Source: Prosthecobacter sp. (GTDB taxonomy: Bacteria; Verrucomicrobiota; Verrucomicrobiia; Verrucomicrobiales; Verrucomicrobiaceae). Taken from it: a stretch of 64,000 nt of DNA. The notes below the pieces were generated by a model. It saw only the letters and a program-made list of their open reading frames with translations, did no database searches and was not told the origin of the DNA. A program made the translations under genes and the position numbers. Location: contig JABARQ010000009.1 of NCBI GenBank assembly GCA_019186985.1, positions 1 through 64,000 of the forward strand. The letters run 5' to 3'. Positions 12,583-44,456 of the stretch are shown one piece after another. The stretch's first letter is position 1. The number at the start of each line of letters is the position of its first letter.

Positions 12583-14067
12583 TCACTCCCCCACCCGCAC
12601 CCAGAGATGAGCCACGGCGCGCTCGCCGCGTTCGTTCGTGCGCTCGACGGTCACCAAATGGTCGCCCGCCCTGGCAAAGACATGCTCGGTGACGGCATAA
12701 CCTTCTTTATCGAGAGGCTTGGCGTTCCCGTCCGAGGTCACCTTCACCGGCGGCGTGCCGTCGCCAAAATCCCAGGTCTCACCGCCCCGGTCCCGGAAGG
12801 TGCGGACCTTGAAGGTGATGGGCTGCCCGGGCTTCAGATTCTGCGTCGGCCAGAAACTCGGGTGAATCGTCGGAGGGATGTTCTTTTCATCCGGCCCGAT
12901 CACCTGCACGACGGCAAAATCATAACTCACCCGCCCGGCGTCATCGGTGACCTTGAGGATCTCGCTGTAGCTGCCGGGCTTCTCATAGGTTCGGCTGACC
13001 CTGGCCTGGCTGGACCTGCCACCGTCCGTGAAGGTCCACTCATGGCTCGCGATCTTCCCTGAGGCCGCCCAGGACTTGCCGCCGTCCAGGGTGATCGTCT
13101 CGCCGGCACGGATGAAGTGATGCGGTCGCGCCACCGCGATCACCGCAGGCTTCTGCTCCTGCACATAAGCCTGCCAGGCAAACGCATAGGCCTCCTGCGT
13201 GCCCCACCTGCCCGATGGCTGCCGGCTCTTGATGCCAAAGTGCAGGTGCGACCAGCCCCCGCTCGCCCCCTCCTTGCCCAGGATGCCGATCTTCTGACCC
13301 ATCTTCACCCGCACCCCGAGCTGGATCGCCGGGTCAATCGTGTGCAGATGACTGTAGCGGTAGTACCAGCCACGGCGGTCGAGCAGGTAGACGACGTCAT
13401 ACCTCGGCCTGACCGGCGTGAGTGAATGGCCGTCCAGGATCTTGTCGGCCACGCTGACCACCAGGCCGTCCGTGGCTGCGATGACCTCGGTCAATCCCTC
13501 ACAGCCGCCGAAATCGAGGTCGTTGTGATAGTAGATCTTCTTCCGGTCCGGCTTGTCGCCGCCGTCCACAAAGGTGGGCTCGTTGGAAAACTGCGTCATC
13601 GTGGCAAACCAACGTTGCTTCAACGGATAAACAAAGGTCCCCGGCTCGATCCAGGGCGACCCTGCGGGCCAGAGCCGCAGCCGGGCGTCCTTTTCCAGCC
13701 CCCAGGAATCCTCTCCGCTGTTGGTGTTGTAGCCCCGGGTGATGGGGCAGTCCACCTGCACACCGCCGACAGCCTGGGGAAGATGGTAGTTCGCGCTCGA
13801 AAGCACCGCCTTCTCCCCATTCACCTCCACTGTCACCTTCGCCTCACGCACCGCCCCGGCCATTGAGTCGATCTTCTCCTGCAGGTCCAGCAGCCGCACC
13901 TTTGCCACCGTCCCATCCGCCAGCCGCACCTCCGCTGCCTCCCCCAGTTTCAGATCCACCGCCCGCAATGTCGGCTCCAGGCTGGCCTGGGGCAGTTCCG
14001 CAAGCAGCACCTGAAAGCAGCCAAGACAGATCCAGACCAGGGCACGGGGAAGAAAGGAGCGATTCAT
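12583..14067 (-). CDS. exported M23 (LytM-like) metallopeptidase with PKD domains
   Basis: 494 residues from ATG 14067, starting with a signal peptide (FLPRALVWICLGCFQVLLA). A LytM/M23 domain in the middle shows the zinc motif HNDLDFG, a tyrosine-rich YYRYSHLH segment and the second motif HLHFG. Two PKD-like beta-sandwich domains follow (HEWTFTDGG and ETWDFGDG motifs), ending at ...VRVGE. Likely a periplasmic or secreted cell-wall or protein endopeptidase. Transcribed divergently from the ATPase pair, so the 129 bp containing the palindrome at 14143 separate the two starts. Confidence 0.85.
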   Translation of the reverse strand: MNRSFLPRALVWICLGCFQVLLAELPQASLEPTLRAVDLKLGEAAEVRLADGTVAKVRLLDLQEKIDSMAGAVREAKVTVEVNGEKAVLSSANYHLPQAVGGVQVDCPITRGYNTNSGEDSWGLEKDARLRLWPAGSPWIEPGTFVYPLKQRWFATMTQFSNEPTFVDGGDKPDRKKIYYHNDLDFGGCEGLTEVIAATDGLVVSVADKILDGHSLTPVRPRYDVVYLLDRRGWYYRYSHLHTIDPAIQLGVRVKMGQKIGILGKEGASGGWSHLHFGIKSRQPSGRWGTQEAYAFAWQAYVQEQKPAVIAVARPHHFIRAGETITLDGGKSWAASGKIASHEWTFTDGGRSSQARVSRTYEKPGSYSEILKVTDDAGRVSYDFAVVQVIGPDEKNIPPTIHPSFWPTQNLKPGQPITFKVRTFRDRGGETWDFGDGTPPVKVTSDGNAKPLDKEGYAVTEHVFARAGDHLVTVERTNERGERAVAHLWVRVGE

Positions 14068-14142
14068 GAGCGGACAAATCGTCCCGCCCTCCCAGACTCT
14101 TGCGCTCTGTGCAGGTGAGGCGTCATGTCGATTAAGCGGCCC

Positions 14143-14190
14143 AAAAAAGGCCAACAAAAATGTTGCACAACAATATTGTTGGCCTTTTTT
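14143..14190. promoter_or_regulatory. 48-bp nested palindrome upstream of the ATPase pair
   Basis: Perfect 15-bp arms, AAAAAAGGCCAACAA (14143-14157) and TTGTTGGCCTTTTTT (14176-14190), enclose a smaller inverted repeat TGTTG-CA-CAACA (14161-14172). It has the shape of a two-way terminator, with A and T runs at both ends, yet it sits in a divergent promoter region 6 bp before the proposed GTG start at 14197. It could be an operator, an attenuator, an insulating terminator or a mobile-element end. Confidence 0.85.
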
Positions 14191-14196
14191 AAATCT

Positions 14197-15456
14197 GTGA
14201 GAACACCCAAACTAGCACGGCCGACCCCAGACTTTTATGTTGGTTCCGTCGTTCCTTCTGAGGACTTGAGGTTTCGGGACGCCTTCATCGAGGAGCTCTG
14301 GGAATCCATCGCCAGCCACCATTTGATCCTCAAGGCTCCCCGCCGCTGCGGAAAAACCAGTGTCATGGAGCATCTTCGTGCCTCGCCGCAGCATGGCTAT
14401 TCCGTGATCTACGAAAACGTCCAGGACCTTGTGCATCCGGCGGACCTGTTCCTCGCCATCCTCGACAACTTCCGCGACCAGCATCCAGGGCTGTTTCACA
14501 CGCTCGTCAAGGGGTGGCAGACCGTCACCTCATGGCTGCCAAAAGTGGAGGAGATCGAATGTGGTGAAGTGAAGACCAAGTTCCGGGAGAATGTGAAGGA
14601 CTACCGCGAACACTGGCGGGAGCATGGTGATGCCCTCTTCCGCCAGCTTCGATCCCTGAAGCGCCCCGTGCTCATCATCGTGGATGAACTGCCGGACATG
14701 CTTCTCAACCTCAGGCAGGAGGATCCTAAGCTCCTGCGGGATTTCCTCTCCTGGTTCCGGGACAAGCGTTGTGACCCCCTGCCGAAAAACGACACCGTGC
14801 GCTGGCTGCTTGGCGGCTCGATCAACCTGTCCTCGACGCTCGACGGCATGTCGCTGCTGGATCGCATCAACGACCTCAAGGACATGCCGCTGCCCGATCT
14901 CACGCCACACCAGATCGAAACCTTTGTGAACGAGATGCTGACAGCCCGTCATGTCGAGTTTGAAAAGAAGCTGCCTGAAAGGCTGAGGGAGCTGCTTGGC
15001 CGCCCGATACCCCTCTTCCTGCAAATGCTCACGCAGGACCTCTATCGCTCCTGGCGGAACAGGCCGCGCAAGCTCAGGAAGGCGGACGTGGAGGCGGAGT
15101 TCTCACGCTTTGTGACCAGCACCGCAGCCCAGGACAAGCTTCAGCACTATTACACACGGCTGGCCAAATATTACGAGGAGCCGGCGCTCAGCCAGGCTCA
15201 TGAAATCCTGAACCACCTCTGCCAGACCGCGGAGAAAGATGGCAGGGACGAGGGTGCCAGCCGGGCCACGCTGATGCATCTCGTTGAAGGCACCTGTCCA
15301 TCCGGCAGGCTGCCCGCCGCCCATGAACGGAAAAGGCTTTTCCTCCAGCTCATGCGGGACCTGGAGAATGACTTTTACATCACCGAAACCACCCCGGGCC
15401 GCTACGGCTTCGCCAGCGGCATCATGAAAGCCTGGTGGAGGAAGCATTATGCCTGA
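14197..15456 (+). CDS. P-loop (AAA/STAND-type) ATPase, first gene of a two-gene system
   Basis: 419 residues from GTG 14197. The frame is open back to ATG 14125, but that stretch translates the palindrome, so the GTG is preferred. Visible: Walker A APRRCGKTS (47-55), Walker B VLIIVDE (158-164), and a sensor-like strand WLLGGS (about 203-208), as in archaeal-type ATPases of the MNS/STAND group. The remainder is helical with no nuclease, protease or TM segment that I can see. Its stop overlaps the next gene's start by 8 bp (ATGCCTGA), implying translational coupling. Exact function unknown; a conflict or signalling role is inferred from context. Confidence 0.7.
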   Translation: MRTPKLARPTPDFYVGSVVPSEDLRFRDAFIEELWESIASHHLILKAPRRCGKTSVMEHLRASPQHGYSVIYENVQDLVHPADLFLAILDNFRDQHPGLFHTLVKGWQTVTSWLPKVEEIECGEVKTKFRENVKDYREHWREHGDALFRQLRSLKRPVLIIVDELPDMLLNLRQEDPKLLRDFLSWFRDKRCDPLPKNDTVRWLLGGSINLSSTLDGMSLLDRINDLKDMPLPDLTPHQIETFVNEMLTARHVEFEKKLPERLRELLGRPIPLFLQMLTQDLYRSWRNRPRKLRKADVEAEFSRFVTSTAAQDKLQHYYTRLAKYYEEPALSQAHEILNHLCQTAEKDGRDEGASRATLMHLVEGTCPSGRLPAAHERKRLFLQLMRDLENDFYITETTPGRYGFASGIMKAWWRKHYA

Positions 15457-18082
15457 AAACAACCGTCACTCCCACTTTGGCTTCTACCGCACCGGCCTGA
15501 TGACGCCGGAGCACCGCCGCTTCGTGACCGTCGGGCGCGGACATGTCCTGGAGGACCTGCTGGATGCCCTGAGAAAAAACGCCGGCCGCGCCGCCAGGCA
15601 TCACGCCCTCTTCATCGGCCTGCGTGGCATGGGGAAAACCCACCTGCTCTCGCTCATTGAGGATGAGATCCATCATGACCCCGGGCTGGCAGCTCACTAC
15701 ACGGTCGTCCGCTTCCCCGAGGAAAGCCTGCGAACCTTGTCTTTCGCCGACTTCCTGCTCGGCATGCTGGAGATCCTTGCCACGAACCACCCCGAGGAGC
15801 CGGAATGGCGGACGCTTCATGAAAAGCTGCGCGAGGAGGAGGATGACGCCCGAATCGTGGACACCGTGGTGGCGGCGGTTCGAAAGGCCGCCCAGCAGCA
15901 CCGGCGCACCTTCCTCATCATGATGGAGAACATGGGCGAGGTTTTCACGAAGCAGATCAGGAACAAGCGGGAGATCGCGGCGCTGCGGAAGTTCCTCATG
16001 GACTCCAAAAACGGCTGCCTCTTCATCGGCACGGCCACTCAGAGCTTCGCCGGACTGACCAGCGTGGACGAACCCTTTTACGACTTCTTTGACGTCCAGC
16101 ACCTGGAACACCTGTCCGAGGAGGAGGCCTCCAGGCTTGTCCACCGCACCCTTGAATGGGAGAAACGCGGGGACCTCCTCGCCCAGTGGGAGGACCTGCA
16201 TCCACGCATCCTTGCCCTCTACCGCATGACCGGCGGCAGTCCGCGCCTCACCGTCATGCTGGCCGAGTTGATCGCCAAGGATTCCGTCATCGAGGTGAAG
16301 GAGCAGTTCCGCATCCTCATGGACCGCATCACGCCTTTCTTCCAGGACCGGCTGAAGGCCATCAGCGGCTCCCAGGAATGCGCCGTGCTCGAAACCATGG
16401 CCACCATGCGCGATCAGGACAAAACCCCCGCCAGCATCGCCAGACGCATGCGCATGAAGGCCTCGCAGGTGTCCGCCTTGCTGGGACGACTCGCGGACCA
16501 GCGGCTGGTGCGCTCCAGCCCGCATCCTGAGGACAAGCGGGTGCGCCGCTACACGATCAGCGAGGGGCTTTTCGACCTCTGGCTCTACATGAACGTCTCC
16601 CGCGGAGCCCGGGAGCGGCAGCCCTTCCTGCTCGACTTCTTCGCCACTTTTTATCCCAGCTACCTGGCGCGTGAAAAAAAGCGCGCCGAGCTGCTGGAGG
16701 ACGCCGGGAGGCAGGAAAAACGTGCCAACGCCCTCGCCGCGCTTGATACGCTCAGCCAGATCGGCACGCCCATGGAGCGGGCGCGGTCTAAAATGGTCCT
16801 GGCGACGGCCTACAGCTGCAGCGGACACGAGACCGACGCCCAAAACGTACTTCGGGAGGCCGCAGACGAGCCCCTGGATCGACTGGGGGGCTGGATTGCC
16901 CACAGCGCCATGGCAGACGCTTACCCGGACTATCTCACCGAGATTCAGGAGCTCATCACGCTCTGGGATGAGCACCGGAGCGGCAACCTCGAAGCCTTTG
17001 TGCGAAAGATGCGGGAGATGGGGGAGGCCTTCACCCCGTTCGCCTATTCAAAGGCCAAGCTCGCCTTTCTTGAGACCCACCTGGAAGAGGTGCCCCCAGG
17101 AGACGATCGTATACGACTGCGGCTGAAGATCGGAAGGCTTCACCGGGATCTGGCGCATTGGAAGGAAGCTGAAACTCAAACCCGCCTTGCCGTCGAAGAG
17201 GCAGAAGCACATGCACCGTCCCTGAGTTCCTGGGCGCTCAATGATCATGCGCAACTGCTAAAAGCCACGAACCGGCTGGCAGAAGCCGAACCCCTCATGC
17301 GCCGTGCCCTCGATCTGGTCGAAAAGAGCTCCGGCCCCGATCATCCCAACGTCGCCATCCACCTCAACAACCTTGCACAATTGCTGCAAGACACGAACCG
17401 GCTGGCAGAAGCCGAACCCCTCATGCGCCGTGCCCTCGATCTGGGTGAAAAAAGCTTCGGCCCCGATCATCCCAACGTCGCCATCCGCCTCAACAACCTC
17501 GCAACACTGCTGCAAGCCACGAACCGGCTGGCAGAAGCCGAGCCGCTCACACGCCGTGCCTTCGATCTGGTCGAAAAGAGCTTCGGCCCAGATCATCCCA
17601 ACGTCGCCACCTGCCTCAGCAACCTTGCAACACTACTGCAAGCCACGAACCGGCTGGCAGAAGCCGAACCCCTCATGCGCCGTGCCCTCAATCTGGTCGA
17701 AAAGAGCTTCGGCCCAGATCATCCCAACGTCGCCATCCACCTCAACAACCTTGCACAATTGCTAAAAGCCACAAACCGGCTGGCAGAGGCCGAACCCCTC
17801 ATGCGCCGTGCCCTCGATCTGGACGAAAAGAGCTTCGGCCCAGATCATCCCAACGTCGCCATCCGCCGCAACAATCTCGCAGTACTGCTGCAAGCCACGA
17901 ACCGGCCGGCAGAGGCCGAACCCCTCATGCGTCGAGCTGTCGCCATCCTCCGGCTTTTCGAGAAAGCCACCGATCACCCCCATCCAGAACTCGACAAGTT
18001 CACCAGCAACTACCGGCTACTCCTGGAAGACATGGGCCAAACCCCTGGGCAAATCGAGCAATCGCTGGCATCTTTGAATTGA
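15449..18082 (+). CDS. P-loop ATPase with winged helix and C-terminal TPR array
   Basis: An 877-residue STAND-like protein. Walker A GLRGMGKTH spans 57-65. The Walker B strand is unusual, FLIMMEN (155-161), with Glu/Asn where Asp/Glu is normal. A sensor strand LFIGTAT (191-197) and a GGSPR motif (262-266) follow. A MarR-like winged helix covers about 310-375 (IARRMRMKASQVSALLGRLA). Degenerate helical repeats lead into six 42-residue TPRs of the kinesin-light-chain type (GPDHPNVA in each), from about residue 607. Such arrays usually sense a ligand in STAND proteins. No separate effector domain is visible. Partner of the ATPase at 14197. Confidence 0.75.
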   Translation: MPENNRHSHFGFYRTGLMTPEHRRFVTVGRGHVLEDLLDALRKNAGRAARHHALFIGLRGMGKTHLLSLIEDEIHHDPGLAAHYTVVRFPEESLRTLSFADFLLGMLEILATNHPEEPEWRTLHEKLREEEDDARIVDTVVAAVRKAAQQHRRTFLIMMENMGEVFTKQIRNKREIAALRKFLMDSKNGCLFIGTATQSFAGLTSVDEPFYDFFDVQHLEHLSEEEASRLVHRTLEWEKRGDLLAQWEDLHPRILALYRMTGGSPRLTVMLAELIAKDSVIEVKEQFRILMDRITPFFQDRLKAISGSQECAVLETMATMRDQDKTPASIARRMRMKASQVSALLGRLADQRLVRSSPHPEDKRVRRYTISEGLFDLWLYMNVSRGARERQPFLLDFFATFYPSYLAREKKRAELLEDAGRQEKRANALAALDTLSQIGTPMERARSKMVLATAYSCSGHETDAQNVLREAADEPLDRLGGWIAHSAMADAYPDYLTEIQELITLWDEHRSGNLEAFVRKMREMGEAFTPFAYSKAKLAFLETHLEEVPPGDDRIRLRLKIGRLHRDLAHWKEAETQTRLAVEEAEAHAPSLSSWALNDHAQLLKATNRLAEAEPLMRRALDLVEKSSGPDHPNVAIHLNNLAQLLQDTNRLAEAEPLMRRALDLGEKSFGPDHPNVAIRLNNLATLLQATNRLAEAEPLTRRAFDLVEKSFGPDHPNVATCLSNLATLLQATNRLAEAEPLMRRALNLVEKSFGPDHPNVAIHLNNLAQLLKATNRLAEAEPLMRRALDLDEKSFGPDHPNVAIRRNNLAVLLQATNRPAEAEPLMRRAVAILRLFEKATDHPHPELDKFTSNYRLLLEDMGQTPGQIEQSLASLN
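17270..17945 (+). repeat. 126-bp tandem repeats encoding TPRs
   Basis: The phrase AACCGGCTGGCAGA, or a one-base variant, recurs at 17270, 17396, 17522, 17648, 17774 and 17900, exactly 126 bp (42 codons) apart. Units are nearly identical at DNA level, including silent positions. This is coding repeat inside the ATPase/TPR gene, not a CRISPR. Confidence 0.95.
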
Positions 18083-19351: not shown

Positions 19352-20035
19352 ATGAGCCAAAACACAGGCACATATACCGCAAAATCTTTCAAAGACGACT
19401 TTGAAAGCGCAAGCCTACAGACCCTTTATCGAAAGATGAAGAAGACGTCGAAAGCGAGGTTTAACGCAGCAGCTCGGCTGATAAGGCATCAGACTTTCTC
19501 TTTATGGACTATGTCTTTGTTCTCTGCGGGCCTCATAGTCCTTCAGCTTCTCGGTGCATACAAGATTCCGATAGGTTTCACCGACAGCACATACCAGTTC
19601 ATTCAAATGGCGCTGGGATTACTGGTTCTCGTGCTCTCTCTCTTGCTCACTTCAAACAAGTTTAGTGAGCGTTCAGAAAAGATGCACCGGTGCGCTCTGG
19701 AGATAAACAACCTTTGCCATAAAATTCTACCAAAGTGCAAAGACGATAACGATTCGGCCCTCTACAATAAGACGTTGACCGAGTACAATACGATTCTGGA
19801 TGCGAACGACAATCACGAGCAAATCGACTTTGCATATGTGAAGTTATCTTTGCCGGAAGATTATCAGTTCACAAAAACGCAGCGTTTCTGTGTGCATGCA
19901 AGGTACTGGCTGGGATATTGGGTATATGGCCTGCTGGCTTTGCTCCTGCTGACAACCTTTATTGCTACTTTTGCCCGTAAGCCTGTCGATTCGCCATCAA
20001 GCGCCCCGACGCCGGTTGGCTCGGTGGAACCTTAA
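19352..20035 (+). CDS. SLATT-like two-TM protein (candidate pore effector)
   Basis: 227 residues. An N-terminal basic helical segment (LYRKMKKTSKARFNAAARLI) leads into two adjacent TM helices (about 53-72 and 84-102), then SNKFSERSEKMHRCALEINN. This pattern, a RFNA.RL motif, two TMs and an E.(L/M)HRCALE(I/L)N helix, is typical of the SLATT family, proposed to form membrane pores in anti-phage systems. A third hydrophobic segment (about 183-205) lies near the C-terminus. No CD-NTase, SLOG or reverse-transcriptase partner is adjacent. The DNA is visibly richer in A/T than its neighbours, pointing to transfer. The family call is from memory of the motif, not a search. Confidence 0.65.
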   Translation: MSQNTGTYTAKSFKDDFESASLQTLYRKMKKTSKARFNAAARLIRHQTFSLWTMSLFSAGLIVLQLLGAYKIPIGFTDSTYQFIQMALGLLVLVLSLLLTSNKFSERSEKMHRCALEINNLCHKILPKCKDDNDSALYNKTLTEYNTILDANDNHEQIDFAYVKLSLPEDYQFTKTQRFCVHARYWLGYWVYGLLALLLLTTFIATFARKPVDSPSSAPTPVGSVEP

Positions 20036-20080: not shown

Positions 20081-20239
20081 AAACGAAAAAGGCGGCTGGA
20101 AGTTCCAGCCGCCTTTGTGTTGATTGGATGAGGCGGACAGGAGTGTCCGCGGGCCTTGTGGATTACCCGATCACCTCCGGCCATTCCGTGTGGAAGAACT
20201 GGCCTTCGGGCTTATCGACACGCTCATAGGTGTGGGCAC
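20081..20239. repeat. gnd 3' end and terminator (direct repeat, right copy)
   Basis: Native copy of the repeat at 18084-18240, belonging to the intact gnd gene and its downstream terminator. The two copies bracket about 2.0 kb. Confidence 0.85.
20086..20113 (-). terminator. gnd terminator
   Basis: GGCGGCTGG (20091-20099) pairs with CCAGCCGCC (20105-20113), loop AAGTT, with AAAAA at 20086-20090 giving a T-tail on the minus strand. It sits about 50 bp past the gnd stop codon. Confidence 0.8.
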
Positions 20240-44420: not shown

Positions 44421-44456
44421 GGCGGCCAGGAAGGAGTTTAACCGTTCCTGGCCGCC
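44421..44456 (-). terminator. groL terminator hairpin
   Basis: Perfect 12-bp stem GGCGGCCAGGAA (44421-44432) with TTCCTGGCCGCC (44445-44456), followed on the minus strand by CTTTAAAA. It lies 40 bp past the groL stop. Confidence 0.75.

Follow-up and report, generated by a model that had tools for sequence, protein, structure and literature searches.

The 64-kb window, by which we mean the whole stretch of DNA that was analysed, carries at 14143-14190 a 48-bp inverted repeat, AAAAAAGGCCAACAAAAATGTTGCACAACAATATTGTTGGCCTTTTTT, whose sequence and coordinates, as given in the preliminary description, are exact. On one side of the repeat a divergent gene for an M23 peptidase/PKD protein starts at 14067 on the minus strand; on the other side follows an operon of two genes encoding a pair of ATPases, P1 and P2 (Table 1), which overlap by 8 bases (ATGCCTGA). 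The GTG start codon of P1 comes 6 bases past the palindrome. This start, proposed earlier, is supported by comparison, as the distance between P-loop and start agrees with that in relatives. The ATG at 14125, with which the palindrome would become intragenic, was rejected as the true start, since two relatives (L028 and L029) have no start codon at all upstream of the equivalent of GTG-14197.

Table 1. Coordinates of the inverted repeat, its proposed operator units and the ATPase genes in the window
Feature	Position	Strand	Remarks
Whole inverted repeat, A6/GGCC...GGCC/T6 outer arms	14143..14190	.	A6/T6 ends vary among relatives
Putative operator unit 1, CCAACAAAAATGTTGC, half-sites CCAAC and GTTGC	14151..14166	.	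Conserved core AAC-N6-GTT
Inner palindrome TGTTGCACAACA, junction of units 1 and 2 (GTT-GCAC-AAC)	14161..14172	.	
Putative operator unit 2, ACAACAATATTGTTGG, half-sites ACAAC and GTTGG	14167..14182	.	Conserved core AAC-N6-GTT, exactly 16 bp past unit 1
P1, 419-aa P-loop ATPase (AAA_22; P-loop PRRCGKT, Walker B DELPD), ORC/Cdc6/RuvB-like fold	14197..15456	+	
P2, 877-aa AAA/STAND-like ATPase with MarR-type winged helix and kinesin-light-chain-type TPRs	15449..18082	+	
MarR-like winged helix, P2 residues 309-372, proposed DNA reader	16373..16564	+	MarR_2, E 6e-9
Predicted recognition helix, P2 residues 338-350, including Q340	16460..16498	+	

According to Foldseek the fold of P1 resembles ORC/Cdc6, RuvB and RFC; the protein also has a winged-helix-like region at its C-terminus, and its profile matched no solved structures. 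In P2 the segment 309-372, located between the ATPase and the TPRs in a part where the structure model is confident, passes the Pfam cut-offs of MarR_2 (36.3 bits, cut-off 27) and HTH_27 (33.2, cut-off 22.2) and matches Rv0880 in the PDB with an E value of 0.004. The ATPase region of P2 is similar in fold to Apaf-1, which ranked first, to NLRs and to ORC/Cdc6, and a TPR_MalT match was found in the same protein. Nothing specific to the pair was present in NCBIfam, no viral relatives were found, and in the open-access papers searched neither the pair nor its operator is described.

In P2 (15449-16888) residues E160-N161 (LIMMENMG) stand in place of the acidic pair of Walker B and are invariant across the nine closest P2 proteins, while P1 has DELPD; judging by these residues, P2 may bind ATP without hydrolysing it and rely on P1. 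Near-identical 126-bp DNA repeats at 17300-17930 code for the TPR units of P2 and differ in copy number among orthologues, which suggests fast expansion and contraction of a putative sensor part.

The repeat at 14143-14190 is the top-scoring inverted repeat of the window, and the chance expectation for perfect 15-bp arms with a loop of up to 20 nt is about 0.003 in such GC-rich DNA. Its outer arms (14143-14157 and 14176-14190) are 15 bp long, perfect and 18 nt apart, and pairing extends over 21 of the 24 half-positions, with mismatches at 14158, at 14160 and at the central CA. The earlier wording, a long nested perfect palindrome, is thus right about the nesting, while perfection is limited to these outer arms and to the 5-bp inner ones (TGTTG/CAACA). 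The predicted RNA fold has an energy of -24.9 kcal/mol (z -4.5). A search of the 5.88-Mb genome for more copies of the 48-bp element, which had been advised, revealed none, also when three mismatches were allowed; a looser pattern gave one additional match in the whole genome, inside an ORF elsewhere, and no regulon of such sites was found.

Judged from its sequence, the repeat is best read as two tandem 16-bp palindromic units, CCAACAAAAATGTTGC and ACAACAATATTGTTGG, rather than as a hairpin. The units are arranged head to tail and give the pattern AAC-N6-GTT-N4-AAC-N6-GTT. Their centres are 1.5 helical turns apart, so that opposite faces of the DNA would be taken up by two dimers or by a dimer of dimers.

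Orthologous P1-P2 pairs are present in three genomes of the same genus, at about 85, 75-76 and 68-69% identity, and in all three the double site stands right before the P1 start, once per genome and with zero control matches. It also precedes more distant orthologues from an Opitutia bin, a Pseudomonadota bin, Binatota, Opitutaceae, Gemmatimonadota and another Verrucomicrobiota family; the loci come partly from metagenome bins and such taxon labels may be wrong, as with L029, which is labelled Akkermansia and whose contig was placed in the window's genus. The 12 core positions match completely in five loci, 11 match in four and 10 in one, and the distant orthologues often have two double sites around -35/-10. 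The terminal A6/T6 is not conserved among relatives. A Pirellulaceae pair (L034) bears the word ACACC/GGTGT instead, which the AAC pattern does not pick up. The occurrence of P1-P2 is patchy, and its placement changes from genome to genome: left and right neighbours differ in all nine loci under comparison, and these AAC-subfamily loci have no third gene in common, hence the site belongs to the P1-P2 pair. The preliminary description had held that loss of the palindrome from relatives keeping the genes would speak against it, and the opposite was found. The palindrome at 14143-14190 is very probably a real DNA control site.

Among distant P1 homologues (about 20-29% identity) a P2 homologue adjoins P1 in every locus read out, the starts being set by the P-loop distance. 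Down to roughly 20-25% identity, the 16-bp dyad geometry recurs across about forty loci of the pair, while the half-site word differs by subfamily (CAAC, CACC, ATAC, ATTC, CGTC and CAAT). Many of the distant loci have arrays of this pitch with other words: TAC/GTA occurs in L050, L053 and L075, TTC/GAA in L051, GTC/GAC in L057, L058 and L022, and CAAT/ATTG in L056, L011 and L080. When 121 geometries were compared over 40 loci, the best five all had period 16 and shared one common dyad frame (z 3.7-4.6). Lag-16 autocorrelation reached z 5.4 over the same number of loci, the next best lag giving 0.5, and nothing comparable was seen at lag 16 in the zone further upstream. Because some loci are near copies (L057, L058, L022), a set of 19 subfamily representatives was scored too, with z 5.0. 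Low scores with the strict four-half-site pattern were obtained for L061, L066, L069, L078 and L081; L078 has three 16-bp units, as does L021, and in the remaining four, sites of the GCAAC/GTTGC or CCAAC type can be seen, differently spaced.

Predicted promoters at the site were noticed in several relatives: TTGACT-16-TATACT in L035, TTGCCG-16-TATAGT in L034, TTGACG-16-TATGTT in L057, L058 and L022, TTGACG-16-TATAAT in L068 and TTGACA-17-TACTAT in L066. In all of them the -35, the spacer or both lie under a unit, a position as for a repressor. In the TAC subfamily (L052, L074, L075) the array ends just before the -35 (TTGACA/TTGACG), an arrangement which would be compatible with repression or activation. 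No consensus sigma-70 promoter was detected in the window or at the site in the three nearest relatives. The distance between operator core and GTG in the window is only 16 bp; no downstream promoter fits into it, so the site has to overlap the promoter or lie past it, which is a repressor's position.

We consider it probable, from these comparisons of sequence, that the repeat functions as a double operator, placed at the promoter of an ATPase operon of two genes that is complete in itself, and that it is bound by a product of that operon, likeliest by P2 through its MarR-like winged helix, and autorepressing. The "operator for autoregulation" of the preliminary description is in this way well supported by the conservation of the site with the pair, by a geometry that would suit DNA-binding proteins acting as dimers and by the promoter overlap in several relatives. 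Two other suggestions made there fared worse. One was an RNA hairpin of the 5' leader, a terminator or attenuator keeping the pair off, to which the stable fold, the T6 after the stem (14185-14190, a T run that is at the same time part of the arm) and compensating changes in the outer arms of L029 (ATCC/GGAT) would lend some weight. However, the U-tract is lineage-specific, being missing in L027 (GGCTATTG), L028 and L029, and a single hairpin needs neither halves that are themselves palindromic, nor a direct 16-bp repeat, nor the three units of L078 and L021. The array moreover lies upstream of the -35 in the TAC subfamily and contains it in others, so it need not be transcribed at all, while in the window the hairpin would end 6 bases ahead of the start codon. 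A terminator scan reported no site, and we regard this reading as improbable. Still less credible is the end of an inserted unit, in the sense of a terminus, target or recombination site of an element. The patchy occurrence of the pair and its different placement in each genome could be expected of such an element, but no matching copy exists at its other end or elsewhere in the genome, and the position is fixed to the P1 start instead of an insertion boundary; being single-copy, the site was likewise rejected as a member of a repeat family. The double site might also be a platform for the main activity of the ATPases, an ORC- or iteron-like assembly with only secondary effect on transcription. 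For P1 as well as P2, ORC/Cdc6 proteins of archaea and eukaryotes are among the best structural matches, including the Cdc6/Orc1 heterodimer of archaea on origin DNA, and two or more tandem units occur; these Foldseek matches are, however, remote (TM mostly 0.3-0.5) and common to many AAA proteins, and the array is found at the P1 promoter or start codon and nowhere else in the genome, which leaves such a platform little likelihood, about as much as the hairpin.

A stronger competitor, although still an unlikely one, accepts the operator as real and assigns its reading to P1 or to an unlinked host regulator. P1 has the ORC-like fold and the C-terminal winged-helix-like region mentioned above, and the winged helix of Apaf-1 and other STAND proteins has a regulatory role and does not bind DNA, which counts against P2. 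A host regulator is opposed by the fact that the site travels with the pair across phyla into different neighbourhoods and that its word follows the subfamily of the pair, not the host: a single genus harbours AAC (the window), CAAT (L056) and GTC (L060). Site and word following the pair fit a regulator carried by the operon, be it P2 or possibly P1. A host SOS/LexA box, which in Verrucomicrobia has GAAC half-sites, is made less likely by the same word changes within one genus, which speak against a single host regulator. As regards P2, the words were grouped by eye ahead of the residue comparison, and the recognition-helix residue two before the conserved Ser is Q, H, K or E in 21 of 21 loci of the CAA/CAC type and T, S or G in all 18 others. 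The helix thus appears in step with the word, as a P2-operator pairing predicts, and this is suggestive at most, since it is confounded by descent: word and helix classes follow the phylogeny, with two changes and one or two independent contrasts, and 8 of 421 columns split the two word classes as cleanly, six of them outside the winged helix. We have therefore discarded the covariation as proof of P2 as the reader, and its phylogenetic non-independence leaves room for a host protein or P1.

Taking the double site as an operator of the pair, we infer P2, in preference to P1 or an unlinked host protein, as the binder, repression as the sign, and a release signal. The winged helix of P2, alone or with P1, would read the 16-bp units. 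Bound P2 or P1-P2 would then shut out RNA polymerase and hold the level of the pair down; a change in the STAND/ORC-like ATPase, driven by a nucleotide or a ligand, would free the operator. A bolder possibility, which we put forward tentatively and think rather unlikely to hold in full, is that the pair forms a hitherto undescribed ATPase switch of bacteria, ORC/Apaf-1-like in kind, in which the built-in winged helix is also the switch's transcriptional repressor; one conformational change would activate the machine and open the promoter, the 16-bp pitch would be set by the P1-P2 assembly, and the word would evolve per subfamily.

The nearest functional analogue found would be the ZitR/AdcR type of MarR operators, in which the -35 and -10 of the regulator's own operon are covered by two TTAACYRGTTAA palindromes, ZitR being a 145-aa stand-alone zinc-responsive dimer (PMC6372160). 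Both cases share two palindromes, AAC/GTT-type half-sites and location at the promoter of an operon with a MarR-type winged helix (PMC6372160). Unlike in ZitR, in our case the winged helix is inside an 877-aa ATPase-TPR protein, the pitch is fixed at 16 bp and the half-site word varies by subfamily. P2 thus has the MarR-type winged helix and, as far as can be read from the DNA, the palindromic operator at its own promoter that are typical of MarR autoregulators, and is not a small stand-alone dimeric protein; with this domain inside a large ATPase we do not file it as a MarR protein, and its working would be MarR-like at most. The order of P-loop NTPase, winged helix and superstructure-forming repeats (TPR) in P2 is that of STAND/AP-ATPases (Apaf-1, NLRs and, as another example, MalT), which differ from it in lacking a constant partner ATPase such as P1, a MarR-like winged helix and ..MEN.. 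for ..DE.. at Walker B. ORC/Cdc6 initiators are likewise paired ATPases with winged helices and give the best folds for P1, whereas the sites described here are at the pair's own promoter and the likeness is in fold only. Regulators with a WYL domain in defence islands, encoded by a separate gene, resemble the pair in the possible self-control of a conflict system (PMC9122601). In contrast to them, no separate regulator gene was found with P1-P2. The pair is not among the anti-phage defence systems catalogued in PADLOC, in which no model fits P1 and P2 gave only weak TPR, CARF/Csa3 and Mad8 matches.

Autoregulatory operators are common; what distinguishes this putative one is the tandem 16-bp dyad geometry, fixed across distant relatives of a paired ATPase while the word varies, a combination pointing to control built into a STAND/ORC-like ATPase and not to a separate regulator gene. 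The site offers a sequence handle with which an uncharacterised, widely scattered gene pair can be found and annotated, and its natural variants make the DNA-binding part of the pair directly testable. Should the proposed switch exist, the subfamilies would constitute a natural set of orthogonal repressor-operator pairs.

Further along the window, a minus-strand ORF of 166 aa without Pfam match lies downstream of P2 (18285-18785), and a gene for a SLATT_5 two-transmembrane effector is located just downstream of the ATPase pair (19352-20035; Pfam E 1.5e-41, PADLOC RTasSLATT models), so the region of P1-P2 and SLATT_5 may be a small defence island. The interval between the SLATT gene and a 6-phosphogluconate dehydrogenase gene contains a 13-14-bp perfect inverted repeat with a loop of 1-3 nt (AAAGGCGGCTGGAA/TTCCAGCCGCCTTT, 20088-20116), an ordinary terminator-like hairpin. 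A perfect 12-bp inverted repeat at 44421-44456 (GGCGGCCAGGAA/TTCCTGGCCGCC) ranks third in the window.
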